From assembly GCA_029061255.1 (NCBI GenBank), contig JAIDSL010000117.1:1-59807 (forward strand): 59,807 nucleotides of DNA, read 5' to 3'. Under the pieces are notes generated by a model. It was not told the DNA's origin. It made no database searches and saw nothing but the letters and a program-made list of their open reading frames with translations. This DNA comes from Muribaculaceae bacterium. GTDB taxonomy: Bacteria; Bacteroidota; Bacteroidia; Bacteroidales; Muribaculaceae. A program made the position numbers and the translations under genes. Of the stretch, positions 18,900 to 42,660 are shown one piece after another (the first letter of the stretch is position 1; each line of letters opens with the position of its first letter).

Positions 18900-21800
18900 T
18901 TACTTCTTGATGAACTTGTGGGTCTCTTTGGATGAGCCGTTGTCGATGACGAGAACGTAAATGCCCTTTTCAAGGCCATCTGTGATTCCCTTGCCTGCAG
19001 CTCCCTTGGCGGTCTTGACAACCTGTCCGGAGAGTGCATCAACTACAGTGAAATCAGCGTTTCCGCTTACTGCGATGATTTCTTCTACTGCAGAAGGAGC
19101 AAGACGATCATAGTTCTCTTTAACTTCTTCTTTAGAAAGCACGAACGGATAGATGGTGAGCTCGTCGATCACGCCATTGAATGTACGGTTCTCGCGACCT
19201 GCCGTAGGTTCGTCATCACCGCCAATCCACATCAGTTCAGATGGATTGAAGTTGATAGCCCCTGTACCGGTATTGTTGTTGGTCATATTCTGCTTGCCGT
19301 CGATGTAGATAGTCATCGAATTAGCAGCTGCATTGCGCACGCAGACGATATGGTGCCATTCTCCATCGAAATAGGTGCTTGGAGAGAGTGCGTAGCAGTC
19401 GCTCTTAGTCACGTCGTCGTCGATTGAGAAGCATAGACGGTCAGTGCTTTCGTTTTTCAGTCGTTCAAGACCAATCCAGTTTCCTGTGCCTCCTTCTACA
19501 TTGGTTTTGTTGTGTGTGCCGATGCAGAAGAGATAGCCATCATTATCAGTCGACTTCATCCAAAGTTCGATGGAGAAGTCATCCTTGCCAAACATCAGTT
19601 CCTCATAAACCGGCTGTGTCAAGAAGCCATTGCCATCAAATTTGATTGCCCCGTTGCTTACTCCTTCTTCAGAGCCCACGGTGCCTGTGATGGCTGCTGT
19701 TGTGCCCTTATAGTCGTTGAGCACAGTCTCAGTTCCAACCGTGTCAAATGAGAAGTATGCTGCACGTCCACTCTTGTCGACGAAGGTTACGTGGATTGTT
19801 CCAGTGATAGAGATGTCTTCGCCATCATCAGAGCCAACAGTTGAGATTGTGTATGTCCATTCACCCTTCTCTGCAGGAACACCGGAGATGATGCCCTTTC
19901 CATCCTTGCTGTCGAAAGTGAATTCCACTCCTTCAGGAAGGCCTGTGACTTCAGCACCCTCTGCACGCATTACTGTGAATTCAATGTCATCGATTGACTC
20001 TCCGAGAGAGATCACCTGCTGAAGACCTCCATGGGTGACAATGATACGCGGACGAGTGTCATACTGAGCCTCGAGGTTGTAGCTGAGGTGAGGGGGCTGG
20101 TTGTAAGCCACGTTCTGCCATGCGATAGCCTCGCGATACTGACGGTCGGTCATAAGACAAGGCACCTTGTATTCGCTTGGGATAGTAGTGGTGAAAATGA
20201 TAAGGTCTGATTCGGTTTCACTGTCATGTAGGATTACCTCCTCGCGCCAGTCTCCGAAGATATCAGCCTGAAGGTTGGGGGTTGCCTTTGTGGTGTTGCA
20301 AGAAGCGGCGTGAGAAGTTCCTGCAAAAACCTTTACGTTTGATACAGACGTGAGGTCTTCATTGGGTTTTGTCACAGCCGTATTGTCAAGTAACTCATCA
20401 AGAAGGTCTCCATCCCAGAAAATACGGAAATTGACTGACGGACGTTTGCTTCCAACAACTTCGCCAGAATTCATTACATTACCGTCAAGAGTAGACCAAT
20501 ATTCGCTTCCGGAGAATTTGGATGATACGTTTGCAATCAAGCCGCGTCCAACATCCTTACCCGGATTTGGCTGGGAGAAGAGAACTTTACCTGTCTTTCC
20601 GTCGCGGAGCGATGTGGCATACTTGCCGTTCTTGTCTTCATGAGGCATATAGATCTCAAGGCCTTCGTTTTCAAGGATGAAATCACCAACATGGAGTGCA
20701 TCGCCATGACCGCCTCCGGTAGAGTGCATGAAAGAACCATCATGGTCTACTGCTCCTGAGCCGATTATAACCTCATCGAAGCCATCTCCGTCAAGGTCGG
20801 CTATGGAAAGAGAGTGGGTGCCTTGTCCGTAGATTCCTTCACCGGCTTTTTCAGATTTGTGAAGCCATTTTTCTTTCAATTCCTTTCCGTCAAAGTCAAC
20901 TGCCCACACATATGATGCGGTGTAGTAGCCTCTTACGAAAATGGCACTTGGCTTAATGCCATCAAGATATGCCACACCGGCAAGATAGCGCTCACAGCGG
21001 TTGCCGTAATTGTCGCCCCATGCATCAGCGCCACTCTTCACATGCTTGCGGATGCTGCGTGGAGGATTATAAGCGATAGTATTGATTTCTGCACCAGTCT
21101 CGCCATTGAATACAGTCAGGTATTCGGGTCCACTCATCACAGTGCCGTCGCTCTTGCGGTAATCGTCAGTCTCTTTGTCATCTCCCATGAGAACAGCTTT
21201 GCCTGTTCCGTCGATGGTGCCGGGAGCAGTCTTGCAGATCAATTCAGCCTTTCCGTCACCGTCAAAATCGAATACCATAAACTGGGTATAGTGATTGCCG
21301 GAGCGGATATTGTGTCCCAGGTCGATGCGCCAGAGTTTTGTGCCGTCGAGCTTATAGCAGTCAATAATAGTATTGCCTGTGAAGCGGGTATGGGAGTTGT
21401 CGGCAGCATTGGTTGGGAACCATTTCACGATGAACTCAAATTCACCGTCGCCATCTACATCACCAACCGAAACATCATCGGGAGTATAGGTATATTCACG
21501 GTCTTCCTTTGCGCCACCGGGCTTAGATGTGCCTCCCTCCGGGCGGTCGAGATGAATCTTCATGAAGTCTGAAGCCCACACATTGTTGGCATTGGCAGAT
21601 TCTTTTTCTTCTCCATTCAAGATTGCCTTGATGGTATATTTTGAATCTACTGTGCCCTCAGGATCGGTGAAGTTGGTCATCTTTGTCAGGGGTGTTTCAT
21701 TCACTTTGACCCCGTCACGATAGATGTCAAATGCAAGGTCGGCGTCGTCAGACGGCAATGATCGCCATGAGACGAAGATTCCTTTGTCAGCTTTCACTGC

Positions 21801-21905
21801 AAGTACCCCACGGCCAAGGTTATCGGCATTGATGGTGTGGGAGTATTGTGCCCATGAAGCAGTTGAAGCAGCGAGCATAAGCGCTGCCATTGCTGTTTTC
21901 TTCAT
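18900..21905 (-). CDS. Rhamnogalacturonan lyase, PL11, with LamG-like and sorting-like domains
   Basis: A 1001-residue secreted enzyme that would cut the rhamnose-galacturonate backbone of rhamnogalacturonan I by beta-elimination. After a signal peptide (ending ASTASWAQ) the first 640 residues show the PL11 beta-propeller with repeated calcium-type motifs such as VGDVDGDGEFEFIVKW, FDFDGDGKAELICKTAPG and IADLDGDGFDEVIIGSGA. An Ig-like domain follows (about 645-720), then a concanavalin-like LamG domain (about 725-920, AAYFSFDTVGTETVLNDYKG, SIELWMKST). The last 60 residues (VVDALSGQVVKTAKG, GIYVLVIDNG) resemble type A sorting signals of the type IX secretion system. It follows the HIT gene by 19 bp and lies 3.6 kb from the main pectin locus. 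Confidence 0.92.
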   Translation of the reverse strand: MKKTAMAALMLAASTASWAQYSHTINADNLGRGVLAVKADKGIFVSWRSLPSDDADLAFDIYRDGVKVNETPLTKMTNFTDPEGTVDSKYTIKAILNGEEKESANANNVWASDFMKIHLDRPEGGTSKPGGAKEDREYTYTPDDVSVGDVDGDGEFEFIVKWFPTNAADNSHTRFTGNTIIDCYKLDGTKLWRIDLGHNIRSGNHYTQFMVFDFDGDGKAELICKTAPGTIDGTGKAVLMGDDKETDDYRKSDGTVMSGPEYLTVFNGETGAEINTIAYNPPRSIRKHVKSGADAWGDNYGNRCERYLAGVAYLDGIKPSAIFVRGYYTASYVWAVDFDGKELKEKWLHKSEKAGEGIYGQGTHSLSIADLDGDGFDEVIIGSGAVDHDGSFMHSTGGGHGDALHVGDFILENEGLEIYMPHEDKNGKYATSLRDGKTGKVLFSQPNPGKDVGRGLIANVSSKFSGSEYWSTLDGNVMNSGEVVGSKRPSVNFRIFWDGDLLDELLDNTAVTKPNEDLTSVSNVKVFAGTSHAASCNTTKATPNLQADIFGDWREEVILHDSETESDLIIFTTTIPSEYKVPCLMTDRQYREAIAWQNVAYNQPPHLSYNLEAQYDTRPRIIVTHGGLQQVISLGESIDDIEFTVMRAEGAEVTGLPEGVEFTFDSKDGKGIISGVPAEKGEWTYTISTVGSDDGEDISITGTIHVTFVDKSGRAAYFSFDTVGTETVLNDYKGTTAAITGTVGSEEGVSNGAIKFDGNGFLTQPVYEELMFGKDDFSIELWMKSTDNDGYLFCIGTHNKTNVEGGTGNWIGLERLKNESTDRLCFSIDDDVTKSDCYALSPSTYFDGEWHHIVCVRNAAANSMTIYIDGKQNMTNNNTGTGAINFNPSELMWIGGDDEPTAGRENRTFNGVIDELTIYPFVLSKEEVKENYDRLAPSAVEEIIAVSGNADFTVVDALSGQVVKTAKGAAGKGITDGLEKGIYVLVIDNGSSKETHKFIKK

Positions 21906-21924: not shown

Positions 21925-22359
21925 TTATTCTTCTGCAAGTGCCTTACGCATATCTTCCACCATCTTAGCATATTCCTCATCAGAAAGATACACTTCGCCG
22001 GGATTCATGCGGAATGTGCCGCCATAGTCGGGTCCGTCTACATATTTAGGAGCAAGATGGAAATGAAGGTGAGAGAGTTTGTCGCTGTAGGCTCCATAAT
22101 TGATTTTTTCAGGATGAAACACCTTGTCCATGGCACGTGTCACTCTTACAACGTCTTTCATAAACGCATTGCGTTCTTCGTCGGAGAGTTCGTTGAGGTC
22201 GTTGACATGTCCGTTGTATGCTACGAGGCATCGCCCGCGGTAGGTCTGTTCTTTAAAAAGGAAAGCCCTTGAGACGCTAAGCGGTGCTATCTCAATCATG
22301 AGGTTGTGGAGAGTCTCATTGTTGGTGCAATAGAGACAATCTTTTGGATCGCTATGCAT
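21925..22359 (-). CDS. HIT family nucleotide-binding protein
   Basis: A 144-residue protein with the histidine-triad motif LSHLHFHLAPKYVDG (H-x-H-x-H) at about residues 107-115, and an N-terminal CLYCTNNE that resembles the CxxC zinc site of Hint-type members. HIT proteins hydrolyse nucleoside phosphoramidates or dinucleotides. The exact substrate is unknown. The gene is followed after 19 bp by the PL11 lyase gene, so the two may be cotranscribed, although there is no obvious link in function. A lone TAATTTTG box on the minus strand (22453-22460) could be part of its promoter. Confidence 0.85.
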   Translation of the reverse strand: MHSDPKDCLYCTNNETLHNLMIEIAPLSVSRAFLFKEQTYRGRCLVAYNGHVNDLNELSDEERNAFMKDVVRVTRAMDKVFHPEKINYGAYSDKLSHLHFHLAPKYVDGPDYGGTFRMNPGEVYLSDEEYAKMVEDMRKALAEE

Positions 22360-22531: not shown

Positions 22532-22562
22532 TTTGATATGTCGGAATTTTTTGATAATTTTG
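22532..22562 (+). promoter_or_regulatory. Consensus promoter for the recombinase-NusG fusion gene
   Basis: TTTG at 22532-22535, exactly 19 bp, TAATTTTG at 22555-22562: a perfect match to the Bacteroidetes pattern. Transcription would start near 22569, which rules out an in-frame start codon at 22533 and supports the ATG at 22590. A second -7-like box, TAACTTTG (22528-22535), overlaps the -33 element. Confidence 0.8.
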
Positions 22563-22589: not shown

Positions 22590-24047
22590 ATGCAACCTGA
22601 AATAGACACATCAGAAGCGGAAGCGATCACTGGGAGGAATAACGGATTCATTGACTACGTCGTCAGTCTTGACACCGACGGATTGTCGGAAATGTTGTCA
22701 TCCAGAGCCATCCCTTCAATGATACACTCTATAAGGCGTCATGGACTTTCAGAGTTTTCTGATAAAACTATCAGGCTTTGGACGATCGACATGCTGCTTG
22801 ATGGACTTAAAGGGAGCACTGTGAAGCGCTATGTAGGAGCGATGCACACTCTTTTCAAAGAATGGTGTGAGGGAGAGGGAATAGAACCAGACAGTAAGAT
22901 ATTTTCCCTTTCGTTAGGAGGTTTCGATACAGACTCTTCAGCCAAACGCCTGAAGGAGATTGAAGAGAACCTTGAAGCGACTGAAAGGTTTACAAAGCGA
23001 TCATTGAAACAGGATTCTCCGGCATTTTTATACAGCAAGGCATTCCAATATCTTTTGTTTAACCCATTTGCATCATTAAAAGATATTGTCAACCTGAAGT
23101 TTTCGGACAGTAGGCCCGACTGCCTGCATCTCGAGGATATCGTCACTTCTATGCGCAATGCCCCTCAGGCAAAATATGTCTTCCCGCTTCAGCAGGGGAA
23201 GCGTCGCGAACCGGCTATCATCAAAGATCTTCTTGTAGAACTTCATGCTACCGGACGGCGTGCCGGATTAAAATTCGGTGATTCTTTCTCCAGGGATTCC
23301 ATCACGTCGCTATGGATTGCAGCCGCTATCAAGGAAGATATTCCATATGCAGAGATAAGAGGGATGATACCCAATTTGCCGGAAGCATATTCTTTTCTTT
23401 CTCTCATAGAACCTGTAGAGATTTCCGAATCCCGAAAGACTGAGATCATGAACACGGTGGCTTATTCAATCACGAATAAGAATCCCGGATGGTTTGTGCT
23501 GAGATTGAGGAGCGGTGTGAATCCTGATAAAATAAAGGAGCGCTTAAAGGAGAAGGAGAGCCCGCTGCAGCGTCAGATCATGTATTATTATCCTCTTCGT
23601 ACTGTTAAGAAGATTGAGAAGAAAAAGGTAGTGGCTGTTGAGACTCCCGTCATACCCGGATTGCTTTTCATTCGTCTGCCGCATGATCGGGTCACTCCGC
23701 TCATAGGCATCATAGGCGATTTGGCATGGTGTTATCGGACATCGGCTAATCCTTCCAGTCCATATTCTGTGATTCCCCAAGCTGAAATGAGGATTTTCCA
23801 AAGGAGCGTTGGTTCGTTTACAGAGGATGTCGAGATGGATATTGTATCAGAATTGCCGGCATTGAACGTTGGCGACGAGGTCATGATCGAAGATGGATCG
23901 CATCTTGACGGTCAGGTGGCTACCATACGAAAAGTGCGAAGCGTAGATGGCACACTCACCTATACGCTTCGCCTTTCAGACACTGCCTTCATCAAGTGGA
24001 AAGACGTCAGTCTTCCCGCCTCCCACTTGTCAAAGGTCGATAATTAA
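22590..24047 (+). CDS. Degenerate tyrosine-recombinase-like domain fused to NusG/UpxY-like antiterminator
   Basis: A 485-residue protein. Residues about 56-97 look like the SAM-like core-binding domain of tyrosine recombinases (STVKRYVGAMHTLFKEWCEG), and residues about 142-275 look like their catalytic domain. By hand alignment LLFNPFASLKDIVNLKFSD takes the place of the usual LLLYTGLR..E..NLKWSD, so the first catalytic Arg is Ser162; SRDSITSLWI replaces LRHSFATHLL, keeping Arg235 but losing His; Tyr267 may sit at the nucleophile place. Residues 299-412 are a NusG N-terminal domain (PGWFVLRLRSG, TPVIPGLLFIRL) and 424-480 a KOW domain (LNVGDEVMIEDGSHLDGQVA), as in UpxY. It probably binds nucleic acid and RNA polymerase rather than recombining DNA. 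Its 3' end overlaps the convergent gene by 41 bp. Confidence 0.75.
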   Translation: MQPEIDTSEAEAITGRNNGFIDYVVSLDTDGLSEMLSSRAIPSMIHSIRRHGLSEFSDKTIRLWTIDMLLDGLKGSTVKRYVGAMHTLFKEWCEGEGIEPDSKIFSLSLGGFDTDSSAKRLKEIEENLEATERFTKRSLKQDSPAFLYSKAFQYLLFNPFASLKDIVNLKFSDSRPDCLHLEDIVTSMRNAPQAKYVFPLQQGKRREPAIIKDLLVELHATGRRAGLKFGDSFSRDSITSLWIAAAIKEDIPYAEIRGMIPNLPEAYSFLSLIEPVEISESRKTEIMNTVAYSITNKNPGWFVLRLRSGVNPDKIKERLKEKESPLQRQIMYYYPLRTVKKIEKKKVVAVETPVIPGLLFIRLPHDRVTPLIGIIGDLAWCYRTSANPSSPYSVIPQAEMRIFQRSVGSFTEDVEMDIVSELPALNVGDEVMIEDGSHLDGQVATIRKVRSVDGTLTYTLRLSDTAFIKWKDVSLPASHLSKVDN

Positions 24048-24417
24048 GCACCATATTGTATGTGCCTATAGAGGTAAACACCGAGACGGCACCTATGATG
24101 ATCCAAGCTATGACTGATTGAAATTCGGGTATGGCATTAAGGTTGCTTAGCACTGAATTTGTTGAGATAAAATCTTCAAACTCTGCTATCATATTGCTGA
24201 TGTAGGGGAGTGCAAATGAGAAGAGGAAGCCAACCAGGAATCCTACAATAGAAGCACAAATCACTGCAAGGCGATTTCGCTTAGTGGCCAAGGCGTTCTC
24301 GCGATGTATTATTTCTACAGCGTTGAGATTTCTTTCAAGCCTTTCCATAAACGCCATACGCGATGACAGGTCAGGTTCATATTCCTTGAATATATCTTTA
24401 AGTCTGTCTTCTTCCAT
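24007..24417 (-). CDS. Small membrane protein of an ECF sigma operon (possible anti-sigma factor)
   Basis: A 136-residue protein with a soluble, charged N-terminal third (about 46 residues, ending at HRENALATKRNR) and two membrane helices (about 48-72 and 101-122). It directly follows the ECF sigma gene, with a 1-bp gap, the usual place of an anti-sigma factor. No zinc-binding HxxxCxxC motif is seen, so an anti-sigma role is inferred from position and topology alone. Its 3' end runs 41 bp into the end of the fusion gene on the other strand. Confidence 0.65.
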   Translation of the reverse strand: MEEDRLKDIFKEYEPDLSSRMAFMERLERNLNAVEIIHRENALATKRNRLAVICASIVGFLVGFLFSFALPYISNMIAEFEDFISTNSVLSNLNAIPEFQSVIAWIIIGAVSVFTSIGTYNMVLNYRPLTSGRRED

Positions 24418-24418
24418 T

Positions 24419-24898
24419 TCAATCTATTTTTAGATATTCCTTAAGATGTTTTCGTCCTCGCGACATTTGTTGGCGTACTGAGTCTTCAGATGAATCAACA
24501 ATTCCGGATATTTCCTTGATGGAATATCCCTCCATATAATATAGGAGTATGGCAATCCTTTCCTTTAAAGGGAGACGATTGAGTGCCAAGTGGAGCTCCT
24601 GATACTTGAAGTTGCAATCAGATGCAGATTCTGATTGCATTTCCCGAACTTCCTCATAGCCTACCATCAGTTTTTCGGATCGCTTATGGCTTAGAAACGT
24701 GTTGTGGCCAATGCGGTAAAGCCAGTAGCGGAACTTATCAGGATTTTCAAGATTTTCAACTGAAAGATATGCCTTGATGTATGATTGCTGAGCAATGTCG
24801 TCGGCAAGGGCTGAATCTCCACAGCAGAGCGCCATGAGAAACCGACGAAACGACTTCTCATGGTTTTTAACCTGGATTATGAATTGCTCCCGGGTCAT
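24419..24898 (-). CDS. ECF-type RNA polymerase sigma factor
   Basis: A 159-residue protein with both sigma-70 regions of ECF factors: region 2 in ADDIAQQSYIKAYLSVENL and DKFRYWLYRIGHNTFLSHKR, and region 4 in ALNRLPLKERIAILLYYMEG followed by YSIKEISGIVDSSEDSVRQQ. It would direct RNA polymerase to its own set of promoters, most likely including this operon. It follows a small membrane protein gene by 3 bp and precedes the putative anti-sigma gene by 1 bp. There is no FecR-type partner or SusCD pair next to it. Confidence 0.92.
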   Translation of the reverse strand: MTREQFIIQVKNHEKSFRRFLMALCCGDSALADDIAQQSYIKAYLSVENLENPDKFRYWLYRIGHNTFLSHKRSEKLMVGYEEVREMQSESASDCNFKYQELHLALNRLPLKERIAILLYYMEGYSIKEISGIVDSSEDSVRQQMSRGRKHLKEYLKID

Positions 24899-24901
24899 AA
24901 T

Positions 24902-25303
24902 CTACTTTTCTTTCAGTACTTCCTTGCGGGTTACGAAATATACTATAAGATAAGCAATCCCAATTGCTGTTGAGACCGAGCCAATCAACATTAGAAAGGA
25001 CAGTTCATCGATATCATTGACCGGCCAAAGGAAATATACGACTGAGAGTGCGATGCCAACAAGTGTACAGATGCAACCACGCAGTAGACGCGCGTAAAGC
25101 AAATCTTTATCTGTATACTGACGGTTTCTGGGATCGCGGAGTGATTCCACCAGACGTTCTGTGTCAACTTCCCTGCCTGATTCGATAGCTTTGGTGAGAA
25201 TCTCGGCACGTTTGTTGTCACTGTTCCATTTTCTAAGGCTGACAATCAGCACGATCGATACGGGTAAAACCACGCAAACAAAGATGGGTACTATCTCTAC
25301 CAT
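24902..25303 (-). CDS. Small membrane protein (DUF6249-like) in sigma operon
   Basis: A 133-residue protein with an N-terminal helix (VPIFVCVVLPVSIVLIVSLR), a charged linker (about 25-70, with ESGREVDTERLVESLRDPRN) and two further membrane helices (about 72-92 and 100-125). This layout matches small membrane proteins that often sit beside ECF sigma genes in Bacteroidetes. It is the first gene of the three-gene operon. No function can be assigned. Confidence 0.7.
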   Translation of the reverse strand: MVEIVPIFVCVVLPVSIVLIVSLRKWNSDNKRAEILTKAIESGREVDTERLVESLRDPRNRQYTDKDLLYARLLRGCICTLVGIALSVVYFLWPVNDIDELSFLMLIGSVSTAIGIAYLIVYFVTRKEVLKEK

Positions 25304-25484: not shown

Positions 25485-26618
25485 TTAGAGCTTGTAGACC
25501 TCTACGCCGGCGAGGAGGAAGCAGCCTGTGCCATAGTCGTCAAAATCCGGCACTGAGTCGTAGGCTACGGGCTGACCGTCTTTGGGTTCTTTGCCGGTGC
25601 CCTGGACATAGCCGAGGTATCCGTTCTCGTGAACGGCTTCTTTCACCATTGCATTCCAAGCCTTGGTGATGACCGGCATATATTTTGCCTTGTCGAGGAT
25701 TCCGTTGCGGACACCCCAAGCCATGCCATATACGAAGAGGGCAGTGCCAGTAAGTTCCTTACCACCAAAGTTGTCAGGATCATGGAGCGATACATTCCAG
25801 AATCCGTCGGGACGCTGGCATTTCACGAGGGCTGCACACATGTCTTGAAGATCCTTTACGTAGACAGCTCTGTGGGGATCGTCGGCGGGTGTATCTTCAA
25901 GAACACGCACGAGGGCTGCAACAACCCATCCGTTGCCACGGCTCCAATAGCAGTTCTTTCCATTAGGCTCCTTGTAGGGAGGCACGAAATCTGCATCTCT
26001 CCACCAAAGGCCTTCTTTCTCGTTGTAAAGTCCACCGGCGAGAGTATTGCGGCTCCACTCATACATGTCCCATGCTTTCTCGCTATATTTCTTGTCGCCG
26101 GTGACAGCGCTTAGCTTTGTGAGCACCGGCATACCCATCTGGATAGCGTCGATCCATGTCCAGTCGTCAACCTGAGGAGTATTGACAAGCATATTGCAGA
26201 GGGAGATGGTCTGGGTTAGCATCTCCGGCTTCGGTGTCAGTTTGTAGAGATCGATATAGGTCTGTCCACATGCATAATTGTCGGCATTGCGGGTAGTGGT
26301 GTCATCGCGGCGCATTCCCCATTTGAAGCCTTCAGCCCAGTCAGTGGCGTATTGCCAGTATTTCTTGTCGGGATATATGGAATGCAAAGCCATCAGCCCT
26401 TCGAAATAGATCGAACGGGTCCATATATTGGCTTCGTAAACTTTCTTACGGGAATAATAGGGGATACCTAAAAGTGGATCCGGATGTTTACGCATGTAGA
26501 GGTCATTGACCTTGATGAGGGTCTTGAGAGTTTCCTGACGGGGAGGAAGCTCTTCCTTTGCCATAATGGCGGGTATTGCCATGATGACAGCAAGGATGGT
26601 TAAGATTACTTTTTTCAT
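25485..26618 (-). CDS. Unsaturated rhamnogalacturonyl hydrolase, GH105
   Basis: A 377-residue exported enzyme that would remove the unsaturated galacturonyl unit left at chain ends by PL lyases. The start at 26618 (MKKVILTILAVIMAIPAIMA) gives a proper signal peptide; an in-frame codon at 26651 lies in a repeat and adds 11 unlikely residues. The GH105 (alpha/alpha)6 pattern is clear: RSIYFEGLMALHSIYPDKKY, NADNYACGQTYIDLYKLTP, PVLTKLSAVTGDKKYSEKAW, CYWSRGNGWVVAALVRVLED and TGTALFVYGMAWGVRNGIL. It is the last gene of the pectin locus. The same activity is also encoded as a domain at 31734-34304. Confidence 0.93.
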   Translation of the reverse strand: MKKVILTILAVIMAIPAIMAKEELPPRQETLKTLIKVNDLYMRKHPDPLLGIPYYSRKKVYEANIWTRSIYFEGLMALHSIYPDKKYWQYATDWAEGFKWGMRRDDTTTRNADNYACGQTYIDLYKLTPKPEMLTQTISLCNMLVNTPQVDDWTWIDAIQMGMPVLTKLSAVTGDKKYSEKAWDMYEWSRNTLAGGLYNEKEGLWWRDADFVPPYKEPNGKNCYWSRGNGWVVAALVRVLEDTPADDPHRAVYVKDLQDMCAALVKCQRPDGFWNVSLHDPDNFGGKELTGTALFVYGMAWGVRNGILDKAKYMPVITKAWNAMVKEAVHENGYLGYVQGTGKEPKDGQPVAYDSVPDFDDYGTGCFLLAGVEVYKL

Positions 26619-26631
26619 AGGGTTGGTATTA

Positions 26632-26665
26632 ATGCATAATTCATAATGCATAATGCATAATTCAT
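26632..26665. repeat. ATGCATAATTCATA-type tandem repeat upstream of GH105 gene
   Basis: Interlocking copies of ATGCATAAT and TTCATAATGCAT, almost self-complementary. A near-identical array is at 39369-39398 upstream of uxaC. Both lie just upstream of minus-strand genes of the pectin locus. Confidence 0.7.
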
Positions 26666-26731
26666 GGACTATGAATTTCTATGCAAATACATAAATGATA
26701 TTACACGTTGATATTAGGTATTATATTAGTT

Positions 26732-29476
26732 TTATTGTTTCTTTTTCATCGGAATTAGCTTTACTTCTGAATTGAGTCCGGCGGGAACGGTCTCCCAGTC
26801 GGAATAATCTACGACTTTCTTGCCGATTACGCTCGCTATATTGGCATCTTTGAAGATCTTCCATTTTTTCCCTTTGCGGTCATAGTCGGCAATCCTGTTG
26901 GCCGGTAGGTTGGTGACATCAATCTCAAGTGTGTTTGTGCCGGGTTGCAGGAATTCTCCGATTTCAATAGTAAATGGAACGCTCCATACTTTGCCTGCAT
27001 CTTTGCCATTGACTTTCACAGAGGCACTTTCGCGGAGATCGCCAAGGTCGAGAAGCCATTCATCGGCTTCTATTCCCTTCGGGAGTTCGAAAGAAACTTT
27101 ATAGCGTCCTGTAGCAGTGTTGACTTTTGCTTCATCGATAGGGAGGTTGGTCCATGCCGTCACAGTATCTGTATCGAACACACCTTCAATAGCCGGCTCG
27201 CTTTCAGGGAAAGTTATACTCCATCCTTTTTCTATGTTGACAGGAGCTCCTTTTTCATAGTAAGCCCATTCCTCAGCGTCAATCTCAGTCGGGAATGTCT
27301 TTAGCAGAAGTGACTGGCCCGGATCTACTTGAAGCAATATCTCGGTTGTTCCGTTCGGTCCCTTACGGGTCTTAGCCTTTCCTTTCTTGCCCGTGAGAGG
27401 ATCGAAGATCATCACGCTTTCAGCCGGCTCCGCCAGTGTCTCCCATCCATCGAGGCTATTGTCGTTGAGGAGAGCGAGGAAATAGTTGAAGCCACCAGCC
27501 TCGTTGGTGCGTCGGAGAAGTGAGACCCCTTTGTTTCGCAGTGGCTCAGGAGTGGCTCCGGTCATTCGGATAGCTGCCTGGATATCTTTTACCGGGGATG
27601 CCATATCCTTTTCAAGCTCTGAGAGTAGGGCACGTCTCTCCTCAAGATTTCCGAGCCCCGGCACATCTTTAGGAAGATTTCCGGTGAAGATCACGTTTCC
27701 ACCCTTTTCCTTGAGATCCTTCAGGGCTTTGAGTGTCTCCACCGGCATATAATTGACGGGTGGGACTATGATCGACTTGTAGCGGTTGCCACCAGTCGAT
27801 ACTATTGTTCCATCTGCCTCGACACTGAGTTCTGATATGAGGGCATCTGAAAGATAGTCAGGATCAAGACCGGCCTTCACCAATTCATTGACCATTGCCT
27901 TCACGTCCGGCATCTTTTTATCCATACTATGGATGTCAAACATCATGTATATGCCGTCTTGACGTTGCCAAATGTCGTCGATAGGGAAGTAGAGCAGTAC
28001 GTCAGAATCAGGGTTGCCTGCTGTAAGAAAAGCTTGGCAACGGGCGATATATTTGAATAGAGCATCCGCATCTTTCCATATGGTGTTGGTAGGTGACATA
28101 TTGACCGATGCATAGAACAACCATCCCGGAAATTCCACTCCTTTTGGGGAGTAAGTGGCTCCATGGAAGAAAATATGGTTGACTCCGGCTGCCAGCATTT
28201 GGTCGATTTCAGGTTTTGCAACAGACAAGGATGTGTGGAAATGCTCGGTAAGCCATGTCAGAGTTTCTGCAGAGACGAGTGGTTTGCCGGCTATGTGGGC
28301 AGCCGAGGATGCAAACTTAAGCACCGCCGGGTCAGCATCGCTGTGGCGCGAATCTCCGGTAGGATGAAGGCCGGGGATATTCAGTTCGGAGCGTCCGAAT
28401 GATTCGCATTCCGGAATGTCAACGATTGCATAGAGGTCAATGATGTTTGCCGGGCTTCCATGGCTTTGGTTGCGGATTTGGGCGCCATGGCTGTGTGCCC
28501 AACGGGTCCAAAGGTCAGTGAAATTTTCGCGCAGTACACGAGCTAAAGTATATCGATAGTCTCTTACGATGCGGCCGCGAAGCTCCGTCTGGTTACCTTG
28601 ATCGGCAAACTCCGGAAGATATTGCTCAAGGCGATAGCCATGATCCTTGGCAAACTCTTCGAAAAGACCTTTTGTCCAGTCTGACCCATACACTTCATAT
28701 GAATCGTTGAACATCACTTTCGGGAAAGTATCTTCCTTCCCGGTGAAAGCCCGGTCGAAACGGTCGAGATATTTCTTTACGGCAACGCTGTCGTAGTGGT
28801 TTACTACATACCCTTCACCACCCGGGGCAGCTCGCTTCACTTTTTGGAATGTCCTTCCTGCAAATAGGGTATACACTTCCCAATTCCCTTTCTTGGGAGC
28901 AGTCCAGTCAAGGGTTCCGTCTTTTTTCAGTTTGTTTGTGATGTCGATGCGAGTGTCGCCATTCACAGCCATTATCTTTTCGACTGTGGCTACCGCGCGT
29001 TGCTTTTCATCCTGCGGCTCTATTTTCACAGCGAGTTTTTTGCCGGGAGCCACGTTCCATTTTTCTATGATGAGTTTCTGGGCACTTTCATTTTCTGTCA
29101 CTTCCGGACCTCCAAATGGCCAGCCTGTTCCGTTGTTCATCTCCGGTTGAAGCCCGAGCCTCCGGCTCTCGTCGGTCACGTGGCGGAGCATCTCCATCCA
29201 TTTTTCGGAGAGGTATGGGATATCGTTGGCTTCGTTGCCCTGCACTCCATAGATAGGAGTGATCTCGAATCCTCCCATTCCCTGACGGGCAAACTCTTCG
29301 AGGTTGTAGGTGAGTCCATCCTTGTCAACGGCGCTTCCTTGCCACCACCAGCGTACGAACGGACGGTTGACTGTCGTCTCCGCATACCAGTCGGTAGATG
29401 GATCTTCGGCATGCATAAAGAATGCCGCGCTTCCAAGCAAGCAAATGGCTGTGAGATATTTATATCTTTTTTTCAT
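26732..29476 (-). CDS. Alpha-L-rhamnosidase, GH106
   Basis: A 914-residue exported enzyme expected to remove terminal alpha-L-rhamnose from rhamnogalacturonan fragments. After a signal peptide (CLLGSAAFFMHAE) it opens with the family motif NRPFVRWWWQGSAVDKDGLT followed by FARQGMGGFEITPIYG. Other GH106 landmarks are PEMNNGTGWPFGGPEVTEN, RNQSHGSPANIIDLYAIVDI, ETLTWLTEHFHTSLSVAKPE and INHIFFHGATYSP-like GVNHIFFHGATYSP. The C-terminal 150 residues form a beta-sandwich (FELPKGIEADEWLLDLGDLR). Length agrees with the family. It lies between the six-hairpin glycosidase gene and the GH105 gene; the gaps hold tandem repeats, so separate promoters are possible. Confidence 0.93.
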   Translation of the reverse strand: MKKRYKYLTAICLLGSAAFFMHAEDPSTDWYAETTVNRPFVRWWWQGSAVDKDGLTYNLEEFARQGMGGFEITPIYGVQGNEANDIPYLSEKWMEMLRHVTDESRRLGLQPEMNNGTGWPFGGPEVTENESAQKLIIEKWNVAPGKKLAVKIEPQDEKQRAVATVEKIMAVNGDTRIDITNKLKKDGTLDWTAPKKGNWEVYTLFAGRTFQKVKRAAPGGEGYVVNHYDSVAVKKYLDRFDRAFTGKEDTFPKVMFNDSYEVYGSDWTKGLFEEFAKDHGYRLEQYLPEFADQGNQTELRGRIVRDYRYTLARVLRENFTDLWTRWAHSHGAQIRNQSHGSPANIIDLYAIVDIPECESFGRSELNIPGLHPTGDSRHSDADPAVLKFASSAAHIAGKPLVSAETLTWLTEHFHTSLSVAKPEIDQMLAAGVNHIFFHGATYSPKGVEFPGWLFYASVNMSPTNTIWKDADALFKYIARCQAFLTAGNPDSDVLLYFPIDDIWQRQDGIYMMFDIHSMDKKMPDVKAMVNELVKAGLDPDYLSDALISELSVEADGTIVSTGGNRYKSIIVPPVNYMPVETLKALKDLKEKGGNVIFTGNLPKDVPGLGNLEERRALLSELEKDMASPVKDIQAAIRMTGATPEPLRNKGVSLLRRTNEAGGFNYFLALLNDNSLDGWETLAEPAESVMIFDPLTGKKGKAKTRKGPNGTTEILLQVDPGQSLLLKTFPTEIDAEEWAYYEKGAPVNIEKGWSITFPESEPAIEGVFDTDTVTAWTNLPIDEAKVNTATGRYKVSFELPKGIEADEWLLDLGDLRESASVKVNGKDAGKVWSVPFTIEIGEFLQPGTNTLEIDVTNLPANRIADYDRKGKKWKIFKDANIASVIGKKVVDYSDWETVPAGLNSEVKLIPMKKKQ

Positions 29477-29493
29477 GTATGTTGGTTTTTTAG

Positions 29494-29521
29494 TCTTAAG
29501 TCTTGAGTCTTAAGTCTTAAG
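29494..29521. repeat. Tandem heptamer TCTTAAG x4
   Basis: Four copies of TCTTAAG (one TCTTGAG) occupy the leader of the GH106 gene. The heptamer is nearly its own complement (CTTAAG) and also appears at 47105-47120. Confidence 0.75.
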
Positions 29522-29541
29522 AATTTATTTTTATGTTTGGT

Positions 29542-29571
29542 GGGCGGTGAGGGGTTCAGGCCTCACCGTCC
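29542..29571. other. Hairpin between six-hairpin glycosidase and GH106 genes
   Basis: An 8-bp stem, CGGTGAGG (29545-29552) and CCTCACCG (29561-29568). A T-rich run follows on the plus strand only, where there is no gene to end. On the minus strand it may act as an RNA-stability or partial stop element between two genes of the locus. Confidence 0.4.
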
Positions 29572-29589
29572 TGTGTTTTTTTCAGGGAA

Positions 29590-31728
29590 TCAAGGTAGTG
29601 GCTTTATGCCTTCCCAGCGTACGTCCCAGGTGCCATCTTTCGGGAATCCGGGATTTTCAATCTCACATCCGTCCCATCCGGCAGTCATCAGAGCCACTGC
29701 TGTCAGCAGTCCGCCATTGCCGGGAAGATAGCAACGAAGTCGGTTGTCCTGATAGTTATGTCCGTTTGGCAGATAGGTGTTGGTGCGCTTGTCCATCAGC
29801 AGGGCATTGATGGCCTTTTCAGGTTCTCCTACGCGTACGGCACACATAGCCGTTGTCGGATAGTCCCAACCCCAAGTCTTGTCCCAGTTCCAATTGTTGT
29901 AGACCCAGTCGAAAGTATTGTCGAGAATCTTTGGGTCGGCAAGTGGGGAAGCAGGGAGAATACCAAGTGAGCCAAGAACAGCCATGTGGTCGGAAGTGAA
30001 GCGGATGTCCTCATAGGTCTGTGGAGCAGTCTCGGCAGCAAGATAAAGGGAGTCTTTTGCAGCAAGATGAGAGAGCTCGTTTGTGATCTTGTCCCATTCA
30101 GGATTTCGCTCGAGCCCCATTCTTTCTCTCCATTTTTGGGCTGTATTGAGTCCGAAATGCCAATATGAGAGTTCAAACGGAGGATTTACGGTTTCCGATG
30201 CCTTCAATGTCTCCTGCGCCGGTATGATACCCTTAAGTATGTAGCGTTTGTTTGCCTCATCTCTGTCAGCAAACGAAGCCATAAACTGAGCGGTTTCCTC
30301 AATGAGGGGATAATACTTGTGGAGAACGGCTGTATCCGGATTCGCACGGTAAAGCAGCTCTGCGAGATAGATGAGATGAGGCTGCTGCCAAATAAGGAAA
30401 GATCCAACTCCTGATGGAGCCTCTATTGAGGAAGGATCAGTCATCTTCATCCATCTAACTCCTTCGAATCCCTGTCGCTTGGCAATGTTTCTCGCGTTTG
30501 CTTCGGCCTTCTCATACCAAGGAAGAGTGCGGGCGAGAAGGTCTTCATGGCCATAGAGGGCGAACTGAGCCTGATGCCACCATATCATCTCGAGATGGAA
30601 TTTTCCAAACCAGGAATTATAAGTCAAGCCTGTCTCCTGAGGCGGGGTAGTGCCCGCACAGTTTGTGGCAAGCAGATACTGCGAGAGCACCACGCGGCGT
30701 TCGAGTTCCTTGGCGCGAGGATCCGTGCAGTGGCTGAAGTCAACCACACCTCCTTCGTTCCAAAACTTCTGCCAGTAGTCGCTTGCATCAGCAATCACTT
30801 TCTCTGCGGTAACATCCGAGTTGCCTGTCATCTCTTCGGTGAATTGCGCAGTGATGCTCCATTTGTCGGCATCCGGAGTGATGACGATGGTGTGTGGGGA
30901 TGTCTTTTCTGCCTCAGTCTTTCCGTCCCAGTGCAGTGTGATGAAGTAGGAAGTGGAGTCAAGGGTATGTTTTACGATAGCCTTACCCGGTTCTGACACT
31001 ACGATGTCGGCAGTGTGAAGGGAGTCGGCGTTCCAATCGCATGCGTCGTCGCTGTGTTTTCCGGTAGGGTAGGGCAGACGAAGAGCAATCGCGTGTCGAC
31101 CTTCATCGTTGATGACAGCAGCCACAAGATCCAGCTCCGGATCAACCGATGTCCTTACTTCAGCTTTCTTTCCGGCTGAAGTGAACTTGGAATTGATCAC
31201 TCCGTTCCACATGTCGAGTGTCTGGTCTATGTCGGTCAGCGATTCAGGCGTTATACCGTCAAATCCAAGTGCGCCGAGATGAAGCCTGTGGGGGTTGACG
31301 CGGTAATAGTCTGCGGCAGCCTTCTTCCTTGGGTCATCTTTAAACTGGACAGAGTAGAGTTCCTGTCTTCCACGCCCGAAGTCATATTCCTTGAGTGTTT
31401 CCTCAAATTTATAGTCTTCAGTGTTTGGAAAGCTGTGCCAGCCCCAGTCGCTCATGGTCCCGAGTGGAACGCCGGCTGAATATATCTCAGGGAATGTCTG
31501 GAGTCCGGTCACATCAGCAGTAAATGCAAATCGTCCGTTGCCAACCGTGAGCGAAGCCATAGTGTCGATGGCTGTGACATGGGGGTTATTGCGAGTCACC
31601 AGTGCGAAACGGTCGATTTTTTCGCTGTTTGAGCTACAGCCGGACATGATTGCCGTCGCGACGAATAAATTCGCCGCGACGGTAGTCATAAATTTCCCTG
31701 TACAGAATAATCTGCGGAATTTATTCAT
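29590..31728 (-). CDS. Six-hairpin glycosidase-like lipoprotein (GH65/GH95-like), pectin locus
   Basis: A protein of about 712 residues with a lipoprotein signal ending MSGCSSNSEK. The N-terminal beta-domain begins with MASLTVGNGRFAFTADVTGL, a motif shared with GH65/GH95-type enzymes, and the C-terminal half looks like an (alpha/alpha)6 barrel: GLTYNSWFGKFHLEMIWWHQ, SFLIWQQPHLIYLAELLYRA, PPFELSYWHFGLNTAQKWRE and NTFDWVYNNWNWDKTWGWDY. I cannot place it in a numbered family. Given its neighbours it may cut a side chain or chain end of rhamnogalacturonan I. The start is the ATG at 31728, 5 bp past the upstream stop; a GTG at 31737 would overlap that gene. Confidence 0.7.
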   Translation of the reverse strand: MNKFRRLFCTGKFMTTVAANLFVATAIMSGCSSNSEKIDRFALVTRNNPHVTAIDTMASLTVGNGRFAFTADVTGLQTFPEIYSAGVPLGTMSDWGWHSFPNTEDYKFEETLKEYDFGRGRQELYSVQFKDDPRKKAAADYYRVNPHRLHLGALGFDGITPESLTDIDQTLDMWNGVINSKFTSAGKKAEVRTSVDPELDLVAAVINDEGRHAIALRLPYPTGKHSDDACDWNADSLHTADIVVSEPGKAIVKHTLDSTSYFITLHWDGKTEAEKTSPHTIVITPDADKWSITAQFTEEMTGNSDVTAEKVIADASDYWQKFWNEGGVVDFSHCTDPRAKELERRVVLSQYLLATNCAGTTPPQETGLTYNSWFGKFHLEMIWWHQAQFALYGHEDLLARTLPWYEKAEANARNIAKRQGFEGVRWMKMTDPSSIEAPSGVGSFLIWQQPHLIYLAELLYRANPDTAVLHKYYPLIEETAQFMASFADRDEANKRYILKGIIPAQETLKASETVNPPFELSYWHFGLNTAQKWRERMGLERNPEWDKITNELSHLAAKDSLYLAAETAPQTYEDIRFTSDHMAVLGSLGILPASPLADPKILDNTFDWVYNNWNWDKTWGWDYPTTAMCAVRVGEPEKAINALLMDKRTNTYLPNGHNYQDNRLRCYLPGNGGLLTAVALMTAGWDGCEIENPGFPKDGTWDVRWEGIKPLP

Positions 31729-31733
31729 TTCAA

Positions 31734-34304
31734 TCACTTTTTCAAGTTGTCATATTCAAGACCAGCAAGGATGAAGGGACCTACGCCCTTAGCATCGTTG
31801 TCGCGGATAGGCTCACTAAGATAATACTGGAATGTGCCGTTTCTGCGCTTGTCCTTTCCTCCTCCAAGTCCTGCTACGGCGCAGCAATTGGTCAGAGAAA
31901 TAGTGCCGTCAGGATTTTCCTTGACGAAAGTCTCTACCATACCCTCATATCCTTTCTTTGCAGGAGCGAGATATGACTCGTCGAGCAGACCGAGGCGCAC
32001 TGCACGGAGAAGGTTGTAGACGAACATTGCTGAAGCTGTTGCCTCGAGGTAGTTGCCCTGACGCTTCGGGGAGTCCATCACCTGATACCATACACCGGAT
32101 TCAGGATCCTGATACTTCACTACACCGTCAGCTACACTCTTAAGGAGCGCAAGCATTTCAGGACGCTTGGGATGATCTGCCGGCATCTTTTCAAGCACAT
32201 CGGTTATAGCCCAAAGGTACCAGCCCATTGCGCGTCCCCATGCGTGCTCTGACTGTCCGGTGCGACGGTCAGCCCAGAACTGTTTCTTCTTCTCATCCCA
32301 TGCATGGCGGTAGAGCCCTGTCGCAGGGTCGTACGTCTTCTTGCCTACAGTGAGGAATTGGTTGGCGATGTCGTTCCAGAGCTTCGGGTCTGAACCAAGG
32401 TAACGGTTTACGTATTCAGCATAGAACGGCTGGCCCATGTAAAGACCGTCAAGCCAAGCCTGGTGAGGATAAATCTTCTTGTGCCAGAAATTCTTTGTCT
32501 TTGTTCTGGGCTGTGATAGAAGCTGGTCGTAGATGTTGTCGGCAGCCTTCTTGTATTTTTCATCGCCTGTGATGTCATAGGCCTGAAGGATCTCAATGCC
32601 TCCCTTCACGTTGTCGATATTGTAAGCGTTCTTGTCAAACGCCTTGATGGTGCCGTCGGGATTTACAAAGAAGTCAGTGTAATTGAGCACGTAGTCGAGC
32701 ATTTCCTTATCATTGTAGGCGCGAGCGGCCGCAAGGATACCCTCGAGTTCCACTGCAGCTGCATAGCTCCATTTCACTCCGTTTACGTCGATAGTCTCGC
32801 TCTTAGGATTGCGTATCATTTCTGATTTAGCCATCTGGTAGGCGAGGGGTCGGCCGTAGAAGCATTCTACACCGTTGATCTTAAGATTGTCAAACACCAC
32901 GTCTTTTACTTCACCTGTGATGCTGTTGCCATCAGCTACACCATTGAAGTTACAATCCTTTACCTCGATGTCGTAGACGTTGCATTTGTCGGCAAGACCT
33001 ACGATCTTGACACCGTATTTGCTCTTGTTGCAATTTACATTCTCAAGATACACGTTGCGGACTGTCGGAGGATAAGCGCGCTTGCATTTTTCTTTGGGCT
33101 CATAGTCGAGGTTGATCTTAAGAACAGCTTCATCACACTGTCCCACTTCAACATTACGGACATAGATATCTTCAATTACACCACCACGGCAAGTATTGGT
33201 CTTGATTCGGATGACACGTTCGAGATCTGGGCTATCCATTTTGCAGTTTTCTACAAAAAGAGTCTTATAGCCGCCTGAGATTTCACTACCGACAACTACA
33301 CCACCATGTCCATTTTTCATCTGGCAATTACGTACGATAATGTTCTCGCTGGGGATAGCACGTTCACGACCGTCACGGTTACGTCCGCTCTTGATTGCTA
33401 TGCAATCATCGCCGGTGTCAAAATAGCAGTTTTCAATAAGAACGTCTTTGCAAGATTCAGGGTCGCATCCGTCGCCGTTAGGACCATCGTTCTGCACATG
33501 AACACCACGAACAGTAACGTTCTGGCACATGAGAGGGTGCATAACCCAGAAGGCAGAACGAAGCATAGTCACATCTTCAATGAGGACGTTTTTACATTCC
33601 ACCGGGTTTACAAGCTGGGGACGCATACCCCAGTTGGAGCCGAGGCGACGCTCAAAAAGGTCAACTCCGCATTCATTCCAGTCTTGAAGAATGATTCGGC
33701 CTGCACGCTGGGATAGCATACCTGGTTTCCATCCCCATTTGTCGTTGCCTACCATTGACCACCAATTCTCGCGGCTTGCACCGCCATCGATGGTTCCCTT
33801 ACCTGTAATCGCGATGTTATCTTGCTTATAAGCATAGATCATAGGGCTCCAGTTCCAGCAGTTCATGCCTTCCCAAGCCGTGAGGACAAGAGGATAATAC
33901 TGATGCGGATCATCAGTGAATAGGAGGACTGCACCTTCCTCAAGATGAAGGTTGACATTGGTGAGCAATTTTATAGGACCTGTGAGCCATGTTCCGGCAG
34001 GGACAATTACCCTACCGCCACCGTCTGCACTACACTTGGCAATAGCAGAATTGATCACATTTGTGTAGAGTTCTTTGCCATGTTTGTCTTTCGGTAATAC
34101 TGAAGCCTTCTTGCCTTTTGGCTTTTTAGGCATGAAATCATTGATGTTGTAATCCTTGTCTTTAAAAGTAGGTGCTTTAATACGAGCCTCTACCTGAGGA
34201 TACACGTCTTTCCATGCTTTCTGGGCTCTTTCTGCAATGCCTTCCGCCATTGCCGAGCCTACGCATAGAATCGCGGCCGCTAATGAAATTAAAGTTCTCT
34301 TCAT
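31734..34304 (-). CDS. Bifunctional GH28 polygalacturonase / GH105 unsaturated glycuronyl hydrolase
   Basis: An 856-residue exported fusion with signal peptide (LAAAILCVGSAMAE). Residues about 80-480 are a GH28 right-handed beta-helix with all catalytic landmarks: NGDGCDP (Asn276, Asp278), TGDDCIAIKSG (Asp299-Asp300), NGHGG (His333) and RIK (Arg366, Lys368). Residues about 500-856 are a GH105 (alpha/alpha)6 domain: WSYAAAVELEGILAAARAYN, HAWGRAMGWYLWAITDVLEK, GNYLEATASAMFVYNLLRAV and ISLTNCCAVAGLGGGKDKRR. The pair can cut the galacturonan or rhamnogalacturonan backbone and take off unsaturated ends. It sits 7 bp after the CE12-GH28 gene and 5 bp before the six-hairpin glycosidase gene. Confidence 0.93.
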   Translation of the reverse strand: MKRTLISLAAAILCVGSAMAEGIAERAQKAWKDVYPQVEARIKAPTFKDKDYNINDFMPKKPKGKKASVLPKDKHGKELYTNVINSAIAKCSADGGGRVIVPAGTWLTGPIKLLTNVNLHLEEGAVLLFTDDPHQYYPLVLTAWEGMNCWNWSPMIYAYKQDNIAITGKGTIDGGASRENWWSMVGNDKWGWKPGMLSQRAGRIILQDWNECGVDLFERRLGSNWGMRPQLVNPVECKNVLIEDVTMLRSAFWVMHPLMCQNVTVRGVHVQNDGPNGDGCDPESCKDVLIENCYFDTGDDCIAIKSGRNRDGRERAIPSENIIVRNCQMKNGHGGVVVGSEISGGYKTLFVENCKMDSPDLERVIRIKTNTCRGGVIEDIYVRNVEVGQCDEAVLKINLDYEPKEKCKRAYPPTVRNVYLENVNCNKSKYGVKIVGLADKCNVYDIEVKDCNFNGVADGNSITGEVKDVVFDNLKINGVECFYGRPLAYQMAKSEMIRNPKSETIDVNGVKWSYAAAVELEGILAAARAYNDKEMLDYVLNYTDFFVNPDGTIKAFDKNAYNIDNVKGGIEILQAYDITGDEKYKKAADNIYDQLLSQPRTKTKNFWHKKIYPHQAWLDGLYMGQPFYAEYVNRYLGSDPKLWNDIANQFLTVGKKTYDPATGLYRHAWDEKKKQFWADRRTGQSEHAWGRAMGWYLWAITDVLEKMPADHPKRPEMLALLKSVADGVVKYQDPESGVWYQVMDSPKRQGNYLEATASAMFVYNLLRAVRLGLLDESYLAPAKKGYEGMVETFVKENPDGTISLTNCCAVAGLGGGKDKRRNGTFQYYLSEPIRDNDAKGVGPFILAGLEYDNLKK

Positions 34305-34311
34305 GTTGTTA

Positions 34312-36405: not shown

Positions 36406-36423
36406 TGTGGAAATTGCTAAGGA

Positions 36424-37926: not shown

Positions 37927-37928
37927 GA

Positions 37929-39344: not shown

Positions 39345-39368
39345 ATGCAGTTAGTTTAAACATTTGAA

Positions 39369-39398
39369 ATGCATAATGCATAATTCATAATGCATAAT
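39369..39398. repeat. ATGCATAATTCATA-type tandem repeat upstream of uxaC
   Basis: The same interlocking ATGCATAAT / TTCATAATG array as at 26632-26665. It lies 25 bp upstream of the uxaC start codon. Confidence 0.7.
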
Positions 39399-39475
39399 CT
39401 ATTTCTATATTAAGATAAATGAAATGCTTTTATGAATTATTAGTTGATTATGTCGGTTGCTCAGTAAGCTTTCAC

Positions 39476-40975: not shown

Positions 40976-40993
40976 GAAGAAAAATGGTAATGT

Positions 40994-41028
40994 TCATGCC
41001 CGGTCGGAATTAATCCGTCCGGGCATGA
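40994..41028 (-). terminator. Hairpin between uxaB and uxaA
   Basis: A 10-bp GC-rich stem (TCATGCCCGG at 40994-41003, CCGGGCATGA at 41019-41028) with a smaller inner stem (CGGA / TCCG). On the minus strand it is followed by mixed sequence with a short T-run 12 bp later. It may be a partial terminator or an RNA-processing hairpin that sets different levels of the two enzymes. Confidence 0.55.
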
Positions 41029-41039
41029 GATAATTTATA

Positions 41040-42521: not shown

Positions 42522-42564
42522 GTGTTTAGATTGATTCTTAGATAGGTTGATTCTTTCTAAAATG

Positions 42565-42596: not shown

Positions 42597-42660
42597 TAAA
42601 ATGCTATTTAATTCAACTTTCGTTTTTCTCCGGTATCAAGTCGATTCAATTACTGCATGT

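Follow-up and report, generated by a model that had tools for sequence, protein, structure and literature searches.

The 59,807-nucleotide contig JAIDSL010000117.1 of a Muribaculaceae bacterium (assembly GCA_029061255.1), here called the window over its whole length, carries at 22590-24047 of the forward strand a gene whose product joins a degenerate tyrosine recombinase to an antiterminator of the NusG/UpxY type. With moderate confidence, this protein can be regarded as a processive antiterminator resembling UpxY and RfaH, whose N-terminal half is a recombinase that has lost catalysis and kept its fold; the copy in the window, an orphan outside any operon, would act in trans on capsule leaders that have no regulator of their own. 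A preliminary description, made from the sequence alone, had proposed both the two-part architecture and the action in trans; the former is borne out by Pfam, by profile searches and by an AlphaFold2 model, and the latter appears likely, given the orphan gene and the regulator-less leader loci of the same genome. The gene has the following features.

22590..24047, forward strand: fusion gene for a degenerate tyrosine recombinase, a NusG N-terminal domain and a KOW domain, 485 amino acids plus stop (open reading frame, profile searches, alignment, AlphaFold2 model).
22532..22562, forward strand: Bacteroidetes-type promoter of the fusion gene, with TTTG at 22532-22535, 19 bp, and TAATTTTG at 22555-22562, read from the sequence; the 5' leader is only about 20-30 nt.
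22671..22919, forward strand: core-binding (SAM-like) domain, residues 28-110 (SAM_5 and SAM_1 matches in relatives; helical in the model; Trp64 invariant in alignment A1).
22920..23465, forward strand: catalytic-like domain, residues 111-292, without catalytic residues (Pro159, Lys hairpin deleted, Thr239, Asn262, Ser271); Trp242 (codon 23313-23315) and Ala246 invariant.
23859..24044, forward strand: KOW domain, residues 424-485 (profile matches in the Protein Data Bank, PDB; structure model).

The recombinase region, comprising the core-binding and the catalytic-like domains, spans approximately residues 18-296, and the NusG N-terminal domain and KOW occupy residues 298-485. The single AlphaFold2 model of the window protein matches integrases over residues 18-296, and both the core-binding and the catalytic fold of a tyrosine recombinase are present; its NusG domain has a good counterpart among solved structures, 8pen_P. 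The structural check proposed in the preliminary description thus yields a recombinase fold, backed by sequence, and not an unrelated one; Mpi, suggested there as a comparator, is a serine recombinase. At the sequence level, the C-terminal half matches Pfam NusG (E 8e-05, 23.5 bits, cut-off 22.2), and the N-terminal half of the window protein alone gives no meaningful Pfam match. Among 26 relatives, Phage_int_SAM_5 and Phage_int_SAM_1 are found in nine each (E<=1; best 3.4e-11 and 3.1e-05, respectively); the catalytic-domain family PF00589 is absent among the 17 Pfam families listed for these relatives. Searches with a profile of the family reach plain tyrosine recombinases of Bacteroidales (lowest E 6.9e-20) and, in the PDB, Cre/XerD (E 0.003-0.016). 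The same profile is matched by the recombinase part of PDB chain 9i5v_14 (401 residues, E 5.9e-05), which is named ribosome-associated inhibitor RaiA and is apparently a further recombinase fusion.

The ATG at 22590 is the likely start, because an alternative longer frame, with a TTG start at 22533, begins within the promoter. TTTG, 19 bp and TAATTTTG together correspond to what we take to be the Bacteroidetes-type consensus; TTTG and TAAnTTTG are unvarying across 10 aligned orphan loci. Where an orphan locus includes an upstream region, the distance from the end of the -7 element to the start is 25-46 nt; the exception is L034, in which the listed start precedes that element.

The catalytic columns were read from an alignment of the 26 fusions (A1) with eight plain recombinases, of which L067 stops before the Tyr; L069, for which the wrong frame had been picked, is excluded from the recombinase counts, and L026 and L031 were dropped from the 39-row alignment. 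In the Arg I column the window protein has Pro159, and Arg is kept by 2 of 26 fusions; deletion of the beta hairpin that bears the catalytic Lys is common to all 26; the second Arg is replaced by Thr239 (Arg in 3/26), the His by Asn262 (His in 1/26) and the Tyr by Ser271 (Tyr in 0/26), these assignments being alignment-dependent and least sure for Asn262 and Ser271. The window protein does not possess, therefore, the Arg-Lys-Arg-His-Tyr catalytic set. Arg235 and Tyr267, which the preliminary description thought might remain, are not catalytic positions in the alignment. That the protein still works as a site-specific recombinase, as the presence of the fold could suggest, is hardly conceivable in view of these counts, and an active recombinase was rejected on the lost catalytic residues.

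Loss of the active site has not led to decay in the orphan lineage. Trp242 and Ala246, around the recombinase motif RHSWAT, are retained in 39/39 sequences, and the ratio of nonsynonymous to synonymous substitution rates (dN/dS) between the window protein and L032 is 0.115 for the core-binding domain, 0.036 for the catalytic-like domain and 0.014 for the NusG domain, the first 29 residues being looser (0.405). The dead recombinase domain of the orphan is under purifying selection. Among the relatives, much of the catalytic-like part is gone from L029 and L030, and in L031 (1072-2034) the core-binding domain alone is joined to the antiterminator, making it a naturally minimal member of the family.

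With the window protein as query (E<=1e-3), matches were obtained in 46 of 198 genomes of the Muribaculaceae family, belonging to 13 of 30 genera; 32 of the 46 are in open frames of at least 430 aa, 3 in frames of 262-329 aa and 11 in UpxY-sized frames of 170-216 aa. Orthologues with 67-95% identity are present on 11 further contigs. An order-wide search (295 genomes, E<=1e-10, no more than five candidates scored in each) returned no match spanning both halves outside the Muribaculaceae family, at thresholds that leave room for weaker fusions elsewhere; the matches found there are in frames of 302-471 aa for the recombinase half or of 174-241 aa for the antiterminator half. Because the assembly is a draft in 228 contigs, an assembly artefact, already envisaged in the preliminary description, or a frameshift artefact might be suspected; however, the same architecture recurs in open frames of many other assemblies and forms one group for each half, and this explanation, to which we give practically no credence, was rejected since the fusion is found in relatives.

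Phylogenetic trees were obtained for 37 N-terminal halves (25 fusions and 12 plain recombinases) and for 43 C-terminal halves (26 fusions and 17 standalone proteins), omitting L067, L069 and the N-terminal half of L029. In both trees the fusions fall on one side of a single branch with support 100/100. Since they form one group in each half-tree, a single fusion event fits, and the fusion probably arose once in Muribaculaceae, as far as these trees can indicate. In the N-half tree the sister of the window subclade is L003, a fusion from the same genus that heads capsule genes; in the C-half tree it is a group of five members, L003 among them. No other match for the fusion occurs in the genome of the window, and the orphan is the sole fusion in 8 of the 11 genomes holding an orthologue.

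Relatives outside the window subclade are mostly placed at the head of polysaccharide operons. Among 20 more distant fusion loci (L043-L062), 17 clearly lead same-strand polysaccharide genes, as judged by eye; L055 is partly masked, while L051 and L057 are uncertain as operon heads. The Pfam families seen most often in 53 downstream proteins are NTP_transf_3 (6), Polysacc_synt and Polysacc_synt_3 (5 each) and NTP_transferase (4), followed by Epimerase, PS_pyruv_trans and Poly_export (3 each). L061:6366-8006 is excluded from set A7, to which L055 yielded no protein. Membership of the unknown gene behind the fusion in some known family was rejected, as six such genes gave no Pfam match at E<=0.01. 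The preliminary description had set the protein apart from classic UpxY proteins; this holds for the window subclade only, because the other relatives are mostly encoded in cis.

In the leaders of the fusion-headed loci a hairpin (CCUCUGUC with GAYRGAGG) precedes a G-run and a purine-rich stretch. By eye, a leader could be anchored in 24 of the 31 upstream regions, after which L030 and L012 were left out; 16 of the remaining 22 make up set A4, and 10 of those 16, chosen for a clear stem, set A5. In the 16 sequences, chosen visually because they show the purine stretch and a clear stem, so that pair statistics lean towards the hairpin, 88.2% of cells pair and 6 of 8 pairs are changed on both sides, i.e. 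the stem shows compensatory changes. None of 500 shuffles matches the observed values in four of five measures, and 28/500 do so for the count of pair types; when the partner is shifted by 1-3 columns, pairing falls to 53-63%. RNAalifold on A4 gave no structure, the stem having been named by eye and then counted; two leaders folded singly have z of -1.9 and -3.9. Rfam returned nothing in the window at gathering scores and nothing in 12 fusion loci at E<=0.1, and a weight matrix covering 14 bases of the purine-rich stretch carried no useful information.

A covariance model, R1, was built from 10 leaders. At E < 1e-4 it finds 12 of 58 sources, corresponding to the 10 training places (one under two ids) and to L024, outside training; on 16 loci fetched for standalone UpxY matches the best result is L076, with E 0.05. 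The scan of the family gave 26 matches in 22 of 198 genomes, 10 of them training loci, and a non-training leader was found ahead of a divergent fusion in L151. In L136 (1501-1561) and L147 (1501-1565) the fusion-type hairpin lies straight before polysaccharide genes with no fusion gene; these leaders are possibly other targets in trans, or remnants. A weak match in L146 (1443-1566; E 0.0036 for that genome) is located just upstream of a plain recombinase gene and may be due to chance.

The promoters of these loci are in part of the invertible kind. A -7 element lies 131-261 nt ahead of the gene in 18 of 31 upstream regions, and the palindrome ATCTCTTnnnAAGAGAT is found at 12/14 positions or better in 10 of 26 leaders, versus 5 of 1300 shuffled ones; L011, L014, L018, L021 and L031 are the five upstream regions skipped in this count. 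Seven of the 31 regions (L005, L007, L009, L016, L017, L019 and L053) have two copies of the palindrome in inverted orientation, and a slightly altered pair is seen in L060, as expected for invertible promoters. In L057 (= L019) the order is a recombinase with all catalytic residues, the palindrome pair, the leader hairpin and the fusion; L173 has the same order of recombinase, repeats, hairpin and fusion, the repeats being 27 bp long. In L169, L170, L171 and L172 a recombinase and inverted repeats, of different sequence in L170, precede an UpxY-like gene that is not fused; this order is the layout published for Bacteroidales capsule loci (excerpts of PMC12118408). Such a side-by-side layout is the likely source of the parts: the fusion would have been born from the kinds of elements that are neighbours there, namely an invertase, an invertible promoter and upxY. 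However, the recombinases of capsule loci with the unfused layout do not enclose the fusions in the tree.

The genomic setting of the window copy is different. No operon follows it on the same strand, in agreement with the preliminary description, and it is not the first gene of a capsule operon. Its neighbours are listed below.

18900..21905, reverse strand: family 11 rhamnogalacturonan lyase (PF21348, E 3.8e-186), left neighbour in several orthologous loci (by eye).
21925..22359, reverse strand: HIT-domain gene, divergent (PF01230, E 1.3e-07), left neighbour in several orthologous loci (by eye).
24007..25303, reverse strand: group of three genes, including one for a sigma-70-family (ECF-like) factor (24419-24898); convergent, with a 41 bp overlap with the fusion 3' end.
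25485..44637, reverse strand: convergent pectin/rhamnogalacturonan utilisation genes (GH88, GH106, weak GH95-like, others), identified by Pfam at 25485-31737 (GH95 E 0.0015, below cut-off) and for the remainder by eye from printed starts.

The three-gene group is present in L032 (two genes, contig end) and in L036, and not in L033, L034, L035, L040, L041 and L042. At least one flank (HIT/lyase or GH88-type) is common, by eye, to 10 of 11 orthologous contigs, L037 having neither. This shared flank would favour a role of the orphan in regulating the adjoining pectin utilisation genes; however, the pectin and HIT genes lie on the opposite strand, the right flanks vary between species, and neither R1 nor a second covariance model, R2, finds a convincing leader in the window, the best R2 match (E 0.19) being at 8317-8375, far from the pectin genes. 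Such a role is thus quite improbable, and control of these genes through a matching leader was rejected. The palindrome is absent at 12/14 or better from the 10 orphan loci considered (the window and nine orthologues), the best being 11/14, in the window and L032.

Candidate targets in trans were found elsewhere in the same genome, where the palindrome occurs at 8 places with at most one mismatch, versus 0 for the reversed pattern. Two pairs are 199 bp apart (C147:5456/5655 and C228:90034/90233) and a further copy is cut at a contig end (C196:40762); all of these sit in homologous promoter segments. Beside the C147 and C228 pairs there is a hairpin leader ending in GAGGG and then AAGAAAGACCATA, with z of -5.7 for the C147 type and of -5.6 and -4.3 for two relatives. 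The C147 leader (G000:C147) runs towards rfbA (rmlA) and rfbC (rmlC), assigned by NCBIfam, about 1.1 kb on; between the leader and rfbA only a 109-aa open reading frame and no antiterminator was seen. In G489:C107 the same leader lies about 1.5 kb before rfbA, in a long operon including aminotransferase-like and WzxE-like genes (below cut-offs; the rest by eye), where no antiterminator was seen either. Among six readable promoters, two point towards the leader (ON; G490:C194 and G494:C40) and four away from it (OFF; C147, C228, G489 and G490:C151), a mixture such as a switch would produce by inversion. BLAST detects the leader in 4 of 12 genomes that carry the orphan and in 0 of 15 genomes of the same genus that lack it, kinship not being corrected for. 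The homologous promoters at the ends of C147, C228 and C196 (L180, L183 and L200) are all at contig ends, as expected if a switch mixes orientations in the population; the contig end hides what comes after the C228 copy.

A number of observations weigh against this picture. In both loci the way from the leader to rfbA is long and holds small open reading frames only, and both readable promoters of the window genome are OFF. No DNA-level match to the leader is present in 8 of 12 orphan-bearing genomes, these being drafts and leaders changing fast, and the 4-versus-0 split ignores kinship. The two leader types are not connected by the covariance models: R1 gives nothing convincing in the window genome (best E 0.37), and no leader of a fusion-headed locus is recovered by R2 (best E 0.22); moreover, 13 of the 26 R1 matches in the family have neither a fusion nor a polysaccharide operon head noted behind them and are probably due to chance. 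The orphan is not always alone, since 3 of 11 orphan-bearing relatives hold a second fusion (L124-L126), followed in L124 by a flippase-like gene (by eye). Finally, the palindrome is below 12/14 in 16 of 26 leaders, and for this reason cannot be a universal target of the recombinase half. As a separate observation, the fusions at L124:496-2172, L125:1339-3213 and L126:1462-3423 are enlarged by translated repeats of the GTHGSCVR and LRSQNCEAD types between the domains.

The window genome also encodes a standalone UpxY (C196:3175-3750, NF033644 E 1.9e-36), which could serve the leaders, the orphan fusion having some other target. In its favour, this protein is above the NF033644 cut-off and an exact palindrome ends 46 nt before its start (L181:3112-3750); however, the genes behind it look, by eye, of LytTR and kinase type and not like capsule genes, the orphan is kept under strong selection, and the leader occurs only in orphan-bearing genomes among the 27 tested. 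We consider this alternative unlikely. The Pfam NusG search of the genome returned only the C196 protein; as it missed the window fusion, it is not exhaustive.

Another alternative, somewhat unlikely in our opinion although the least so of those considered, concerns the recombinase half, which could be a mere assembly or spacing domain that binds no specific DNA. The palindrome falls short of 12/14 in 16 of 26 leaders, and part or all of the catalytic-like domain has been lost in L029, L030 and L031. On the other hand, L031 retains precisely the core-binding domain, which is the DNA-gripping part of recombinases, and the low dN/dS of the catalytic-like part in the orphan speaks against a simple spacer.

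Taken as an antiterminator that has reused a recombinase, the fusion may be thought to work as follows. In the distant relatives it is mostly the first gene of the polysaccharide operon that it would serve, thus acting in cis, as in most of the family. RNA polymerase would start at the promoter, often invertible, and cross the inverted-repeat palindrome where present; the transcript would form the leader hairpin and then the G-run and the purine-rich stretch; the NusG half would be loaded at the leader and the long operon would be read through. The window orphan, outside any operon and with its own simple promoter, would most likely act in trans, as RfaH does, on those capsule operons of its genome in which an invertible promoter and a hairpin leader are present and an antiterminator gene is absent. 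As to the dead recombinase half, its most likely contribution is DNA binding at a specific sequence, or assembly, in the region of promoter and leader. A bolder version, which we offer only tentatively, is that this half still binds the invertase palindromes (ATCTCTTnnnAAGAGAT) at phase-variable capsule promoters, blocking further inversion like a latch that keeps the expressed capsule ON, and hands the NusG half to the departing RNA polymerase, in trans for several switches in the window species. If so, one and the same protein would sense how a DNA switch is set and respond to it, and promoter inversion would be coupled to antitermination.

The closest known systems are other specialised NusG paralogues. 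In Bacteroides, UpxY is encoded by the first gene of the capsule operon, with an upstream leader, and invertible promoters are common (excerpts of PMC12118408, PMC8748976, PMC7819879 and PMC7593976). The fusion shares with UpxY (NF033644) the NusG N-terminal domain and KOW and, in most distant relatives, the place at the head of a polysaccharide operon behind a leader. It differs in about 290 additional N-terminal residues of recombinase origin, in its score (61.2 bits, E 1.1e-16, or 63.7 bits for the C-terminal half alone, versus a cut-off of 100), in the separation of the fusions from the 17 standalone proteins with support 100/100 and, for the window copy, in the location outside any capsule operon. 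Thus, the window protein is predicted to work like UpxY and is not filed as a member of that family. RfaH loads at a leader hairpin or pause element; it shares with the window protein the nature of a specialised NusG paralogue encoded by a single gene and a NusG domain of the kind matched by 8pen_P, and the orphan gene and the regulator-less leader loci of the same genome would fit an action in trans on several operons. RfaH is indeed described as a single-gene, trans-acting specialised NusG paralogue (excerpts of PMC7593976). However, it has no recombinase half, and the window protein stays below cut-off with the RfaH models (TIGR01955: 14.8 bits versus 144.5). LoaP, which works with a leader RNA hairpin, is also devoid of a recombinase half (21.7-24.3 bits for the window protein, cut-off 125). 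LoaP is a specialised NusG paralogue that promotes antitermination (excerpts of PMC7819879). The tyrosine-type DNA invertases of capsule loci share with the fusion the core-binding and catalytic folds, but the plain recombinases aligned keep the catalytic residues, and the one tested for it, from L057, has an arm-binding domain that the fusion lacks.

Reuse of a recombinase DNA-binding domain in gene regulators is known for the ALOG domains of plants (excerpts of PMC3537659), which differ from the fusion in being of retroposon origin and in having the DNA-binding domain only, with no antiterminator. An upxY fused to part of wecA, mentioned in the excerpts of PMC8748976, is a different thing; those of PMC7819879 and PMC7593976 contain no mention of recombinase, fused or fusion, and PMC9409006 is a further source on the topic, likewise in excerpts. 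The preliminary description knew of no regulator with this architecture, and the open-licence literature searched contains, as far as found, neither a recombinase-UpxY/NusG fusion nor anything on capsule control or antitermination in Muribaculaceae.

The fusion represents a new architecture for specialised NusG paralogues, found in a bacterial family that is among the dominant ones in the mouse gut. A recombinase has been retired from catalysis and reused in apparent transcription control, where it is kept under selection beside the kind of DNA switch that its relatives flip. This family allows a direct test of how specialised NusG factors reach their operons, and it offers two states to compare: the fusion encoded in cis at the operon head, and the orphan that would act in trans.
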